Shown piece after piece: positions 2,894-12,028 of a stretch of 12,028 nt of DNA. The stretch is from Nitrososphaerales archaeon TH526 (lineage in GTDB: Archaea > Thermoproteota > Nitrososphaeria > Nitrososphaerales > Nitrososphaeraceae), in the NCBI GenBank assembly GCA_014523665.1, contig JAATVR010000609.1, forward strand, positions 1 to 12,028, read 5' to 3'. The position numbers were made by a program, and so were the translations under genes. Every line of letters begins with the position of its first letter. Positions within the stretch are counted from its first letter, which is position 1. The notes under the pieces were generated by a model that was not told the origin of the DNA, ran no database searches, and was given only the letters and a program-made list of their open reading frames with translations.

Positions 2894-3259
2894 TTATTTA
2901 GGCAATAGACTCTCTGGCAGAGTACCCTGAGGAGCTGAGGATAGTACTAATGTTTCGAAACGGCAATTATTATCAATTCGCAATTCTGTATTACCGTTGC
3001 TCCGTAGGGAAACGTCAACTCTGTACGCATACCACTCACGGTTCTTGTTCCCATCTCTTACGAAGCATCCTCGATAACCAAGAGCTGGTGGAGAGGGCCT
3101 AGCAGCTTCTGCATTCTCAAACGATTCCCAAACTTTTTCCAATTCTTGTACCGTTTCTCTACTAACGCTCCAAGTAGGATCCGGCCGGCCTGAAAAAATA
3201 TAGGCTCCAGCAATCCACTTTTCATTAGTGTGAGATCTAGCGGATTTTGATATGACCAT
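2894..3259 (-). CDS. Stand-alone FSGR/LGYRG-module protein, 121 residues
   Basis: This small protein consists almost entirely of one module. IFSGRPDPTW lies at residues 21-30, a helical E/L-rich stretch with helix-type spacing follows, then ALGYRGCFV at 59-67, and a strand-rich tail ends in LPESLLPK. The same module (IFSGR, then ILGYRG) forms the N-terminus of the gene immediately upstream, so the two are paralogous domains. I have a memory of 'FSGRPNP...LGYRG' proteins of unknown function in myxobacteria and other bacteria, but no function is known to me. The ATG at 3259 overlaps the end of the upstream gene by 23 bases, and no Shine-Dalgarno is visible, so translation is probably coupled. 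No signal peptide or catalytic motif is present. Confidence 0.75.
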   Translation of the reverse strand: MVISKSARSHTNEKWIAGAYIFSGRPDPTWSVSRETVQELEKVWESFENAEAARPSPPALGYRGCFVRDGNKNREWYAYRVDVSLRSNGNTELRIDNNCRFETLVLSSAPQGTLPESLLPK

Positions 3260-4124
3260 GTTTTACAACCATGAAGGCACAAAAATCTGTGTACGGTCCT
3301 CGATCGGCTGTTCGAGGGTCAGGGATAATATTTCCGCTATTGTCTAAGTTTGTCGCTGGGGTACTGCCTGGTTTGTGTGTCCAAAATCCATTTATTGATT
3401 TTCTGTACCAGTGAAAATCAATGCCTGGAGCAACTACTAGAGCTGCTAAATGTCCTTCCTTTGCACACTTGTTGTTTGCGTTAGGCACATCTACAAGTGC
3501 ATCGGCTACAGAGGCGGGCTTTACCGCAGCACAGGAAAGTGAAGTATACATTGAACCACCAGCAAGTCCAGGCTGGGCAAAAGTATCGCTTCTATAGTTA
3601 GTCGCATAATTGTAACAATTATTGTTAAGCTGCCTTTGGCCCCCATCGTTCCACCAATCAGGTTCATAAACTGGAGCGCACTTACACAGTATCCTTGCTG
3701 GCCAGGTAATCCGTTTTGTCTTGAACAGTTTGCTTAGCTGGAAGGATCGTGTCCTCTCTTTGTTAACAAAGCTAGAAATATTTCGCCCTATGCTCAATTT
3801 CCGAATTGGTCCTTTCGATCCACAGAAGTAATTTTCAAAGTTTTCGTCAGCTGCGAGATGAGCAAGTCCGGGTCCAAACAATTTTCCATGTACTACACGA
3901 AAACTTCTTGGCAACGTCTTTAGTTTCAATCCTTTGTCTTTCTGTCGAACAACAAGTCCTCTATAACCCAGAATTGAGCTCGGGGTCATTTCGCGTTGGT
4001 CCTTTTTTAATTCGTTCGCTGGTTCCAACCTTTTGAGTGTTTGTACTGCCTCCTCCCCTTCCAATTCTAATACTGGGTTTTTGCGACCACTAAAAATGTC
4101 GACTTCGATTTCAAGTTTCAACAT
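3237..4124 (-). CDS. FSGR/LGYRG module fused to a Cys/His-rich domain, 295 residues
   Basis: First gene of a two-gene operon. Residues 8-61 carry the module shared with the next gene (DIFSGRKNP, then ILGYRGLVV). After a Lys/Arg-rich middle, residues 167-290 form a distinct domain: NNNCYNYATNYRSDTFAQPG (167-186), HLAALVVAPGIDFHWYR (225-241), FWTHKPGSTPATNLDNSGN (247-265), then DPRTADRGPY. The Cys170 and His238/His250 pattern would suit a papain-like thiol hydrolase fold, an inference only. From memory, 'FAQPG...HWYR...HKPG...D.SG' domains occur in many bacterial hypothetical proteins and in a mollusc shell-matrix protein family. ATG 4124 is preceded by a TATA-like CTTAAAT about 25 bases away (4146-4151) and by AAGGG five bases upstream. 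No signal peptide is seen. Confidence 0.8.
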   Translation of the reverse strand: MLKLEIEVDIFSGRKNPVLELEGEEAVQTLKRLEPANELKKDQREMTPSSILGYRGLVVRQKDKGLKLKTLPRSFRVVHGKLFGPGLAHLAADENFENYFCGSKGPIRKLSIGRNISSFVNKERTRSFQLSKLFKTKRITWPARILCKCAPVYEPDWWNDGGQRQLNNNCYNYATNYRSDTFAQPGLAGGSMYTSLSCAAVKPASVADALVDVPNANNKCAKEGHLAALVVAPGIDFHWYRKSINGFWTHKPGSTPATNLDNSGNIIPDPRTADRGPYTDFCAFMVVKHGHIKIR

Positions 4125-4739: not shown

Positions 4740-4767
4740 AGAATTCCTTTGTTAGCAGATACATTTG

Positions 4768-5673
4768 ATGGTTTCCAAACTTAAAGGTATGGGTTGGTTG
4801 CGAGATCCAATTGACCCGAGAGATTTTTCTCTTGAGGATCCTAAGGTCAAAAAAATTCTAACGAGCAACAATAATAAAAAACTGAAGGCTAAGCGCGCGA
4901 CCGACCTTCCTAACAAGGTAGACTACCGTAAGTGGTGTCCACTTATTGAAGATCAAGGTGATTTAGGTAGTTGTACTGCAAATGCTGGTGTAGGGATGTA
5001 TGAATATATGCAAAATAAGGCTATGGGAAGATACATAGATGGTTCAAGACTCTTTTTGTATAAAGCCACAAGATTACTAATGGGACGCGAAGGCATACGT
5101 GATTCTGGTGCTTATATTAGGACGACGCTAGGAGCAATACGACTGTTTGGGATACCACAAGAAAATTATTGGCCTTACACAGATGACCCGGTAGAATTTG
5201 ATAGAATGCCTGACCCCTGGCTTTGGACCCTGGGACAATACTTTAAGTCGATCGTACATTTTAGATTAGATAATACCATATATGCAGATGAGAATATCAA
5301 AAGAATCAAAGAGTTTGTCTCGTACGGATTTGCGGTTGACTTTGGATTTTATGTTTTTCACTCTATTTGGGACTCCTACCGCAATGGTGGTGTAATACCC
5401 TTTCCAGCAAATACGGAAAGATTTGAAGGGGGGCACTCTGTGCTGATAGTCGGCTATGATGACAATAAGGTGTCTACTAATGGTAGAGACGGTAACACTG
5501 CAACGGGATGCTTTCTAATTAGGAATTCGTGGGGCGAAGACTGGGGAGATTATGGATACGGATGGATCCCATATCAATTCTTTCAACCCAAATTTAATGG
5601 CGATGTGCTGGCTGATGATGCCTGGACAATAATTAGCGAATCATGGATCGATACAGGAGAGTTTATGCCATGA
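4768..5673 (+). CDS. C1-family (papain-like) cysteine peptidase
   Basis: This is a papain-fold thiol peptidase of about 301 residues; numbering below counts the TTG codon at 4765 as residue 1. The oxyanion Gln64 and nucleophile Cys70 are in EDQGDLGSCTANA (62-74), the catalytic His224 in EGGHSVLIVGYDD (221-233), and the Asn254 in IRNSWGEDWGDYGYGW (252-267), so the whole C1A active site is present. The N-terminus GMGWLRDPIDPRDFSLED matches the short GW-x-x-D-x-x-DPRD lead of prokaryotic C1 peptidases that lack a long inhibitory propeptide. No signal peptide is visible, so a cytoplasmic site or non-classical export is implied. I prefer the ATG at 4768 over the in-frame TTG just before it. The gene is monocistronic and divergent from a decayed Ser-rich gene. 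Its substrate is unknown. Confidence 0.93.
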   Translation: MVSKLKGMGWLRDPIDPRDFSLEDPKVKKILTSNNNKKLKAKRATDLPNKVDYRKWCPLIEDQGDLGSCTANAGVGMYEYMQNKAMGRYIDGSRLFLYKATRLLMGREGIRDSGAYIRTTLGAIRLFGIPQENYWPYTDDPVEFDRMPDPWLWTLGQYFKSIVHFRLDNTIYADENIKRIKEFVSYGFAVDFGFYVFHSIWDSYRNGGVIPFPANTERFEGGHSVLIVGYDDNKVSTNGRDGNTATGCFLIRNSWGEDWGDYGYGWIPYQFFQPKFNGDVLADDAWTIISESWIDTGEFMP

Positions 5674-7378: not shown

Positions 7379-7918
7379 TCAAGCAGACTTTCCCAATTCT
7401 GCAGGGTTTTCATAACAGGTTACTCGGATTCTTTTGTACTTTAGCACATCTTTGGCATCGCTCAGCCGTTGACCGCTTCTAATCCTAGGAACTACAGTTA
7501 TTGTAAACTTCGACCTAGTCCGTGCATATTTTTTTAGCAATTTAGTAGCTTCCACTGACTTATAGACTGGATCCACATGACTATGTATCCTAGAATCATA
7601 TGTCCTAAATGGGGCGGGTTCGCAATGACCTTCGTCACCCCAACAACCGTCGTGACCAAAAACGTTGTACGAACCAACATAACCATTCGATTCATTCAAT
7701 GGGGTATTCTCATCTGCTCTAGGATTATTAAGGAACACTCGTCCTTCATACGAAGGTCCATTAGTGTCTACTCCGTAAAATTCAATTATAGCTTTGTAGA
7801 ATTCGTTTTCGTTCCGGTCGTACATTAAACTCATCTCGGGAGTGGTTAACTTGTTACCAAATTTATCTTCTATACCATCTCCACTCTCATCATTTTTGTG
7901 CTGTAATTTATTATTCAT
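7379..7918 (-). CDS. Separate tyrosinase C-terminal-type beta domain protein
   Basis: Second gene of the tyrosinase operon, 179 residues from ATG 7918. Core features are EFYGVDTNGPSYEGRVFLNN, then GYVGSYNVFGHDGCWGDEGH followed by CEP, and KFTITVVPRI near the end. As I know the family, the series 'vyLN.p...yaGs..fFGH..C.G..GHC.v...YD.R...H.tp...fTVTVVP' is the C-terminal beta-sandwich normally fused to bacterial tyrosinase-family enzymes. Here it is a stand-alone protein. The conserved Cys92, Cys99, His98 and His88 (ATG numbering) could bind or deliver copper, in the manner of caddie proteins, or the domain could cover the active site. Both are inference. The start is fixed by a textbook Shine-Dalgarno; the in-frame TTG at 7945 that overlaps the tyrosinase stop has none. 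No signal peptide is seen. Confidence 0.88.
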   Translation of the reverse strand: MNNKLQHKNDESGDGIEDKFGNKLTTPEMSLMYDRNENEFYKAIIEFYGVDTNGPSYEGRVFLNNPRADENTPLNESNGYVGSYNVFGHDGCWGDEGHCEPAPFRTYDSRIHSHVDPVYKSVEATKLLKKYARTRSKFTITVVPRIRSGQRLSDAKDVLKYKRIRVTCYENPAELGKSA

Positions 7919-7926
7919 AACTTTTT

Positions 7927-7935
7927 CCTCCTTCC
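7927..7935 (-). promoter_or_regulatory. Strong Shine-Dalgarno deciding the 7918 start
   Basis: Minus-strand GGAAGGAGG ends eight bases before ATG 7918. It is the only perfect Shine-Dalgarno noticed in the window and sits at the only non-overlapping internal operon gene, as expected where first genes are leaderless. Confidence 0.85.
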
Positions 7936-7941
7936 TTTTTT

Positions 7942-8721
7942 TCAAAATTTTACCTCAGAACCTCCTGCAGCGTATTCATATCCCAGGTCATATATTTTTA
8001 GAACATTCTTGACACGATATGGGAAAGGTTCTAGATCCATTTCTGGCAAACCCTCAGGCAAATTGTTTCCATGTTTGGTCTGCCAAATGGCCCATATCCT
8101 ATCTATATTGCAATGATGTGCCCAAAAGACCGGATCGTACGCAGAATAAGCCTGAGTGCTCATCGATCCACCACACCAAACATGGACCGAATCATGAACT
8201 TCTTGTAACGCTGTACTAAATTCTCCGAAATCTGAAATATCATACAACGCTTTCACAGATGAATTTGCTGGCAGCTGGCGAGGACGTCTAGGATTTCGCT
8301 TCGTATCAGCATCTTGTGAAGGAATATGAAACTTGTATAACGGATTTTGCGTTCCATCCGCAGTTGGTTCCTTATAAGCCTTAGGTATGCCTTCTCTATG
8401 TGACAGGGGTGAAGTCGCATCCCACCAAGGTAATGAAATATTCGAATCATGGTCCAGTAAATGATCCTCAAATACTTTTAGATACGCGCGGTGCCAAGGA
8501 AGAAAAGCATGCGTTCTTAAAAAGGGGAACCTTCGACTGCTTTGACCATGCCAACAATACCAATCGGGAACACCGTGATTGCCTGCCATGTGATTATAGC
8601 CCCTGTTATCTGTTATGGCCATAAATTTCGTCATTGCTTTTCTAAAGGTACTCAATCGAGGCGCGTCATAGCTACTAATGTTCATCCTCCTTCTTACTAT
8701 GTCATCGCCTGGACCATTCAT
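7942..8721 (-). CDS. Tyrosinase (type-3 copper oxidase) catalytic domain
   Basis: A 259-residue type-3 copper enzyme that would oxidise phenols or catechols to quinones with O2. The CuA region runs from YNHMAGNHGVPDWYCWHG (42-59) to FLRTHAFLPWHRAYLKVFE (67-85). Likely ligands are His49, His58 and His77, with Cys56-x-His58 placed as in fungal enzymes that have a Cys-His thioether. His71 is an alternative. The CuB region is HDSVHVWCGGSM (176-187; His176, His180) and DPVFWAHHCNIDRIWAIWQ (196-214; His202/203). The residue after the first CuB His is Asp177, where many monophenolase-active enzymes have Asn. There is no Tat or Sec signal. The protein stops where the catalytic domain ends; the usual C-terminal domain is the next gene. 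A TATA box fits the ATG at 8721. Archaeal tyrosinases have been described from marine ammonia oxidisers. Confidence 0.95.
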   Translation of the reverse strand: MNGPGDDIVRRRMNISSYDAPRLSTFRKAMTKFMAITDNRGYNHMAGNHGVPDWYCWHGQSSRRFPFLRTHAFLPWHRAYLKVFEDHLLDHDSNISLPWWDATSPLSHREGIPKAYKEPTADGTQNPLYKFHIPSQDADTKRNPRRPRQLPANSSVKALYDISDFGEFSTALQEVHDSVHVWCGGSMSTQAYSAYDPVFWAHHCNIDRIWAIWQTKHGNNLPEGLPEMDLEPFPYRVKNVLKIYDLGYEYAAGGSEVKF

Positions 8722-9910: not shown

Positions 9911-12028
9911 ATGAAAGAAGTATCACCTCAGGGGGAAGAATAATACGCCTAAATCAGTACCAATAGATTCCCGTGTTAATCACGAAAAACCTGTCGCATA
10001 TGCCGGTCCCAAACAGATCGTATATGAAGGAGACAAAGTAGTTCTGGAAGGTAGTTGCAATCTCGATGGGGGTAAAATAGCGAATAAAAACATTATGTAT
10101 TCTTGGAACCTGGATCGCGATAGTAGTGATGGTAATAGACCCGATTTCTTCCTTGAACCCGTAGAAGAAAATACTAGAAACGCTAGTTTCATTGCCCCTT
10201 ATGTGAGCTTTGATCCAAGTAGGCCAGATAACCAGACGTACCTATCTCTTGTATTCAAACTTGTAGTTAAGGACTTCAACAGCAGGCTAGAGAGTGATCC
10301 ATCGTGGATTACGATCATTGTAAAGACGATACAAAGAGTATTGATTCTGCAAGGGGGTGGTGCGCTTGGAGCCTACGAAGTCGGTGCATACAGGGCATTG
10401 TGTGAAAGACTCTCTGCAAAAGATAAAGAAAATGATGCAAGAAAGAATAGACCACTATTTGATATTATTGCAGGGACATCGATCGGTGCTCTAAATGCGG
10501 CATTGATTGTCAACTCAATAAAGCAGAGTATGAAGGCTAAGAGTCCTAAAGTTCCCATTAATGAAATGTGGAGTAAATCAGTTGTGGATCTTGAAAGGTT
10601 CTGGGATGCCATAACATTTTCAATCCCACCTTTTGAGAACCAATTTTTTGATACCTGGTGGAATTTCTTACATGTTGCCACTTCTAATATACAGCACTGG
10701 ACTAAAAGTTATCTTGATAACTTAAGTAATTCTAAATCTGAAATGCTTAGTCCAGAAAATAATACATTCAATCCGTACTACCTTTACCTGCGAGATGATA
10801 TGGTTACACCTGCTGCGGATGCAGAAACTGCTAGGAGATTCTTCTCATGGTTATATTTCCCTTATCTTCTTCCAAATAAGGTGGTTACTCCAAACTTTCC
10901 GCAGCCTGACACCAAATTTTTTACTGGGGTTCCACGATTAACAAGGTTTGATAACAGTGCATTGGCTAAGGTAGCAATGGACCAGAATTTTTGGAATTAT
11001 GAAAATGATCCAATAAAGACAGAATTTCAAAAAGGAGAACCAAGATTGTTAATTGTGGCCGTAGATATTCAAGATGCAACATCGAGTGTGACATTTGACA
11101 GCTACCTGTGTGAGAGCAAATACAAAGATGGTACTAGTTCCTTTCCAGAGCACATAATAAAATATACTGATGGGATTAGTATGAAACACGTCAGAGCGAG
11201 CATGTCTCCACATACTGTAATAGATTATCCATGGTTGCTAGATGAGCAAGATGATAGTAATAAAGACAAGAGACGATACTTTTGGGATGGTGCTTACCTT
11301 AGTAATACTCCACTAAGAGAGGTACTACACTTGCATAGATACTACTGGTACACTTTGCAGAATGCCAGGTTAAATAACACTGATGAAATGAAAAACAAAA
11401 GTAGTAAAGCAGTCGATGGAGCTGGAAGTATTGATAGCGATAGTAATGAGCTCCATGTTCCACATCTAGAAATCTATATAGCTAATTTGTATCCCATAGT
11501 CGAACAAGACCAGGATATTCCCCCGAAAGATCCAGATATTATTCAAGATAGAGAATTGGACATAAGATTTCATGATAAGACGAGATACGACATAAAAATA
11601 TCAGAGTTGATAACAGATTATTTGATATTGCATGGACAAATGAAGAATTTGGCCTTGAAGCATATTGGCATATTTGATAAGAATAAGATTCAGGGATTCG
11701 AAGAGGAATATCAAAGTATCCTAGGAGGATTAACGCATAGTCAAAAAAGAAGTAGCAATGAGTACCGTGTTACTGATAACAAGTACGAAGCTGCCCCAGA
11801 CGAGCTTCAAAACGACAGAACCTATAAGGATCTGATAGATGGTAGATTTGATGTGGCAAGAGTCGTGTATATAAATAGGAAAGATGACCAGGGGACGATC
11901 TTTGGGAAAGCGGCCGACTTTTCAAAGGAAACAATGATCTTGATGAAGGAAAAGGGATATGAGGATGCATGGCGAGCTCTGGATATCGCCTCAGAGAAGA
12001 AATCATCTCAATCATATAAAATAATTTG
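9911..12028 (+). CDS. PKD-like domain fused to patatin/DUF3734 lipid acyl hydrolase (partial)
   Basis: The frame is open from 9915 to the window end with no stop, about 704 codons, and continues beyond it. It has no usable start codon before its first domain. ATG 9911, one frame off, opens MKEVSPQG and joins after a +1 shift in GGGGG (9931-9935). Numbering through that join, residues 27-135 are PKD-like: KPVAYAGPKQIVYEGDKVVL, GSCNLDGG, MYSWNLD and ASFIAPYVSF. The patatin domain follows at once: oxyanion loop QGGGALGAYEVG (147-158), nucleophile elbow GTSIGALNAA with Ser190, and WDGAYLSNTP with catalytic Asp459. The C-terminal VVYINRK and KAADFSKETMILMKEKGYED match the DUF3734 tail of bacterial patatins. 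It should hydrolyse acyl esters of lipids. No signal peptide is present, unusual beside a PKD domain. The catalytic call is firm; the start is not. Confidence 0.88.

Follow-up and report, generated by a model that had tools for sequence, protein, structure and literature searches.

Patatin-like hydrolases and PKD domains are each known from systems with which the gene described here can be compared. As portrayed in reviews, PhaZh1 of the archaeon Haloferax mediterranei is a patatin-like intracellular polyhydroxyalkanoate (PHA) depolymerase with a serine in its lipase box (GTSGG, as opposed to GTSIG in the protein described here); its gene adjoins bdhA, and no PKD domain is mentioned in these descriptions (PMC11205408, PMC7137286). 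Bacterial patatins of the DUF3734 type, about 400 amino acids long, carry no PKD domain and consist of a patatin core, with a glycine loop and a WDG(A/G)..SNTPL motif, followed by a C-terminal part. The CBASS phospholipase CapV has the patatin fold and dyad. PKD domains are usually found in cell-surface proteins, among them the K319L-like domains (PF22352) of KIAA0319 and KIAA0319L. Here, we analyzed a 12,028-nucleotide stretch of Nitrososphaerales archaeon TH526 (GCA_014523665.1), which is the complete contig JAATVR010000609.1 (C504; the whole stretch is called the window below) of a 4.9-Mb genome in 833 contigs. An open reading frame (ORF) on this contig places a PKD-like domain of the K319L type before a patatin that shares with the DUF3734-type enzymes the order of core and C-terminal part, the glycine loop, and the motif.

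The PKD-patatin architecture is almost certainly real: it is a conserved fusion of single origin with an intact hydrolase active site, for which we infer a mechanism below. The uninterrupted order of PKD domain, patatin core, and DUF3734-like tail, as given in a preliminary description of this DNA, is borne out by the frame itself (P0001; Table 1), Pfam, the relatives, and the structural model. In a set of 121 proteins, comprising the query and the best 120 of 1927 matches, the N-terminal domain was present in 107, far beyond chance, and the other 14 records begin within or downstream of the PKD domain. All relatives with an organism name were labeled Nitrososphaeraceae. Precomputed Pfam labels already combine PF22352 with PF01734 in 7 of the listed 120 proteins in the database. 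The literature searched yielded no description of the architecture; the listed papers sharing the terms patatin and PKD looked unrelated by title, and the accessible part of a study of skin ammonia-oxidizing archaea mentions patatin-like phospholipases and no PKD fusion (PMC13245735). The architecture is thus undescribed in the literature searched, yet visible in database labels, so that the earlier remark that no described enzyme was known stands for the papers searched.

We assign the N-terminal domain to the PKD type because three lines of evidence agree, namely, Pfam matches in the relatives, a model with a KIAA0319-like fold, and a domain profile that finds PKD repeats. The window protein alone matched no PKD family in Pfam at an E value of ≤1. 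Among 18 aligned proteins, 12 matched PF22352 at an E value of ≤0.1 (best, 5.2e-9) and 4 matched PKD_4 at the same threshold. A PKD/Ig-like beta-sandwich, as anticipated in the preliminary description, was present in the predicted structure of residues 21 to 138 (pLDDT, 86.3), and among the families listed by VIA-align, the closest solved folds included the KIAA0319 PKD domain. A profile built from the domain also detected PKD repeats elsewhere in the same genome. With the PKD part of one relative (P0094) as the query, 38 matches were obtained: 36 were members of the fused set, and the other 2 (P0122 and P0123) had no listed patatin domain.

The patatin core was recognized in the window protein well above the Pfam cutoff (PF01734; E value, 6.9e-15; 56.2 bits versus a cutoff of 27.7) and in 18/18 aligned proteins. 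The Ser-Asp dyad is intact, and the protein is a predicted serine hydrolase by its motifs. The tail is less clear-cut; PF12536 matched the window protein with an E value of 0.027 and 15.2 bits, short of the cutoff of 22, compared with E values of 1.5e-33 (L095) and 2.4e-34 in the two bacterial patatins tested. In the aligned proteins, PF12536 was found at an E value of ≤0.1 in 13 of 18 (best, 3.7e-5). The domain search proposed earlier was positive for the patatin core, fell below the cutoff for DUF3734, and gave no PKD family at an E value of ≤1 in this protein, which by its sequence is related to the DUF3734 patatins and is not assigned as a member. The genome holds 44 patatin-like matches (several per gene) over 22 contigs; the fused copy is therefore one of a large set. 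These contigs include C601 and C689, whose copies are frame-split, as well as C97, C370, C144, and C556.

The two domains meet without a linker. The nine junction columns (Table 1) were gap-free in 110 of the 121 rows, the remaining rows not spanning them, and no aligned row had extra residues between 137 and 138. The commonest forms in relatives were IIVKMVQRA (47 rows) and IIVKMIQRA (19 rows). In the model, the last PKD strand (residues 130 to 137) is immediately followed by the first patatin strand (residues 139 to 145). Median identity to the window protein was 0.47 in the PKD part (103 proteins) and 0.54 in the patatin core (118 proteins), and the N-terminal tail was unconserved (0.11; 68 proteins) and modeled with low confidence.

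Unfused relatives start close to the glycine loop, as previously stated, and the PKD profile detected no separate PKD gene beside them at the loci examined, except for L046, where a remote patatin has a multi-PKD ORF at a distance of about 4 kb. In a midpoint-rooted tree of 35 unfused patatins and a chosen subset of 35 fused ones, the fused proteins formed one group with one change (94/94; 94% of bootstrap trees), and on this tree one fusion event explains the fused patatins. The proposed look for the same architecture elsewhere in Nitrososphaeria found it in the Nitrososphaeraceae-labeled proteins and in two further genomes of the family. In all, searches of 70 family genomes detected fused copies in 3, representing three genera (G000, which is the window's, G001, and G016); weaker fused copies may have been missed because the two queries were run at thresholds of 1e-60 and 1e-70. 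In G025, only a C-terminal half was present in the stretch examined, and this genome was not counted as fused. Across a phylum sample of 398 genomes, 4 had a match at an E value of ≤1e-50, and the sole fused match was the window's own. A scan of named genomes, which may omit the window's genome and near ones, gave no frame with both domains in the best 80 loci of 497 confirmed relatives.

None of the 77 complete fused proteins had an export-like hydrophobic N terminus; within their first 45 residues, no 15-residue segment averaged above 1.56 on the Kyte-Doolittle scale, which is a test of hydropathy and not a signal-peptide prediction. The enzyme is therefore probably cytosolic, and in this it resembles the intracellular PhaZh1-like depolymerases. 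While the PKD domains of KIAA0319 and KIAA0319L are found in surface proteins, that of the window would precede a cytosolic enzyme. Archaeal membranes are built of ether-linked lipids, and a cytosolic patatin consequently needs another ester. Patatins are numerous in this archaeon and its relatives, yet the membranes are ether-linked, which raises the question of their substrate; the fused subfamily, conserved and with its active site intact, is a concrete candidate for a storage-polyester substrate.

We propose that the protein is an intracellular ester hydrolase, perhaps acting on PHA granules or oligomers, in which the PKD domain forms a rigid module for docking, and we put the probability of this reading at somewhat below 0.4. 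After a single fusion in soil Nitrososphaeraceae had placed the K319L-type domain before the DUF3734-like patatin, the product would be a serine hydrolase of the cytosol whose substrate is a bulk, water-insoluble ester, PHA granules or their oligomers being the likeliest. The PKD domain, rigidly packed at the edge of the first patatin strand, would dock the enzyme to the granule or to a granule protein. The narrower claim, that a surface-type PKD domain became the intracellular docking module of a PHA-mobilizing enzyme in soil ammonia-oxidizing archaea, is doubtful. If true, it would supply the missing PHA depolymerase of these archaea as well as a PKD domain functioning inside the cell.

This reading draws on bacterial gene neighborhoods, PHA synthases in the genomes, and the PhaZh1 precedent, all of them indirect. 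Among 45 bacterial loci holding a patatin relative (within L052 to L108), 26 have a short-chain dehydrogenase/reductase (SDR) frame on the same strand within 1.5 kb, and the SDRs of all four loci tested (L095, L062, L094, and L070) scored above the TIGR01963 cutoff as 3-hydroxybutyrate dehydrogenases. The adjacency is also a lead on the function of bacterial DUF3734 patatins in its own right. Class III PHA synthase is encoded in the window's genome and in 8 of 9 other genomes searched, and the single genome without it is 66% complete. Passages of published work report PHA production by N. viennensis, detected by Raman (PMC4129164), and PhaC and PhaE genes in "Ca. N. evergladensis" (PMC4084955). 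Of the sites to which the preliminary description thought the lipase might be presented, a storage granule has thereby gained indirect support, while a membrane or an S-layer is disfavored by the N termini and the ether-linked membranes.

Several observations weigh against a role on PHA. Among 35 archaeal loci, of which 24 had complete flanks, none showed a same-strand SDR of at least 50 bits within 1.5 kb, and the three fused loci (window, L137, and L138) have no SDR at all and thus lack the 3-hydroxybutyrate dehydrogenase neighbor of a PhaZh1-like depolymerase. At the archaeal locus L066, an SDR lies near an unfused patatin on the opposite strand, and TIGR01963 is not among its best 25 models listed. 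At L166 of G009, a same-strand SDR about 0.5 kb upstream of an unfused patatin reached 140 of the 307 bits required and was rejected as a 3-hydroxybutyrate dehydrogenase. Nothing in the window's genome exceeded the TIGR01963 cutoff (best, 205 of 307 bits). By eye, the fused loci have no common neighbors: tyrosinase and a papain-like protease in the window, P450-like and response-regulator-like proteins in G001, and a thioredoxin-like protein and a helicase in G016, so that a conserved operon was rejected. The bacterial patatins score just 34 to 61 bits on the archaeal profile, and this remoteness makes a transfer of function to the archaeal enzyme bold. Furthermore, the conserved PKD positions resemble, in a by-eye reading, plain core positions with no evident binding motif, and the window's PKD frame lacks ATG, GTG, and TTG codons upstream of position 10095. 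According to a review, a phaZh1 knockout left PHA mobilization unaffected (PMC7137286).

In G446, phaC lies 8.6 kb from an unfused relative with unrelated genes intervening, and this was not used as evidence. A compact PHA locus was seen on contig C22 of the same genome, which belongs to another family of the same order (L160, 13520 to 16861), with PhaC identified by TIGR01836 and, by eye, PhaE-like, AbrB-like, phasin-like, and alpha/beta-hydrolase ORFs beside it.

The enzyme could instead be a cytosolic esterase or lipase on other esters, such as triacylglycerol, imported acyl lipids, or lysophospholipid, with the PKD domain solely as a module for folding, stability, or oligomerization, a serious possibility to which we give less than even odds. 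Patatins cleave many acyl esters, the 44 patatin-like matches argue for diverse substrates, and the rigid junction of constant length is compatible with a purely structural role of the PKD domain. Lipases and a possible triacylglycerol reserve have been discussed for Nitrososphaera in passages of one study (PMC4084955). However, the bacterial DUF3734 neighborhood indicates 3-hydroxybutyrate metabolism, and the unfused relatives manage without a PKD domain.

Export by a route invisible in the sequence, followed by a role on the surface of the cell or toward other cells such as PKD domains usually have, is improbable. The window's genome encodes two other PKD proteins with hydrophobic N termini (2.42 and 2.57) and has two further PKD loci, a frame-split one and one without a hydrophobic start. 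P0122, the best nonpatatin match of the PKD-only search, combines FG-GAP repeats with a signal-like start, and in one subgroup of the fused proteins some records begin mildly hydrophobic (MQSEALILGIIYYELSV, up to 1.48). Patatins are also among the interaction traits listed for skin Nitrosocosmicus in the part of the study available (PMC13245735). Against this stand the hydropathy result for the complete fused proteins and the poorly conserved, poorly modeled N-terminal tail.

Even less probable is a phospholipase of defense by abortive infection, like CapV, which was among the structural matches. The only PDB sequence matches at an E value of ≤0.1 were two cyclic-nucleotide-activated phospholipases (best, 0.0044), and the patatin core gave weak PADLOC matches to phospholipase effectors (best E value, 2.4e-6), but the best stretches span only about 60 core residues (25.1 bits over about 57 residues), and the NCBIfam score was 19.3 bits against a cutoff of 200. 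None of the 8 other window proteins scanned matched a defense model at an E value of ≤0.001, leaving no CD-NTase partner among them; no relative was found in viral contigs, and there was no PHROG match at an E value of ≤0.01. An ether-lipid membrane is, moreover, not an obvious patatin target. With no specific signal in PADLOC, PHROGs, or viral contigs, the defense reading was rejected. A misassembly or frame error joining two genes, to which the out-of-frame 5' start might point, is refuted by the independent occurrences in other proteins and in two other genomes and by the unbroken junction here, and its probability is negligible.

The 5' end of the window copy is a separate matter. The gene had been taken to start at 9911, but the ATG there opens a different frame of ten residues, and a stop codon at 9912 to 9914 precedes the PKD frame, which runs from 9915. 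Relatives P0002 and P0005, which have a similar beginning (MKEVS...), run directly into the PKD domain and show that intact copies exist; the 5' end of the window copy is therefore damaged or misassembled, while the domain junction is intact.

Table 1. Positions of the PKD-patatin frame and its features in the window
Feature	Positions	Strand	Basis or remark
PKD-patatin open frame P0001	9915..12026	+	704 codons without a stop; contig ends before any stop codon
ATG-led short frame, MKEVSPQGEE-stop	9911..9943	+	Out of PKD frame; like the start of P0002 and P0005
PKD-like domain (K319L type, Ig-like beta-sandwich), residues ~25-137	9987..10325	+	Relatives' profiles, model, folds
Linker-free junction IIVKTIQRV, residues 134-142	10314..10340	+	Alignment of 121 rows
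Patatin catalytic core (PF01734), residues 143-470	10341..11324	+	Pfam
Oxyanion glycine loop GGG, residues 147-149	10353..10361	+	Invariant in 113/113 rows reaching the position
GTSIG nucleophile elbow, predicted catalytic Ser189	10473..10487	+	Invariant in 114/114 rows reaching the position
DGA motif, predicted catalytic Asp458	11286..11294	+	Invariant in 119/119 rows reaching the position
DUF3734-like C-terminal part, residues 607-695	11733..11999	+	Weak PF12536 match under the curated cutoff

Among the other genes of the window, the tyrosinase (7942 to 8721, minus strand; PF00264; E value, 1e-31) overlaps by four bases a downstream ORF of 188 amino acids (7379 to 7945, minus strand). This ORF has no Pfam match and by eye resembles the C-terminal lid part of polyphenol oxidases as a separate gene. 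By eye, two overlapping ORFs on the minus strand (3237 to 4124 and 2894 to 3259), without Pfam matches, resemble tandem paralogues with IFSGR..P as a shared N-terminal motif. The papain-family cysteine protease (4765 to 5673, plus strand; PF00112; E value, 1.5e-13) is likewise encoded on this archaeal contig.
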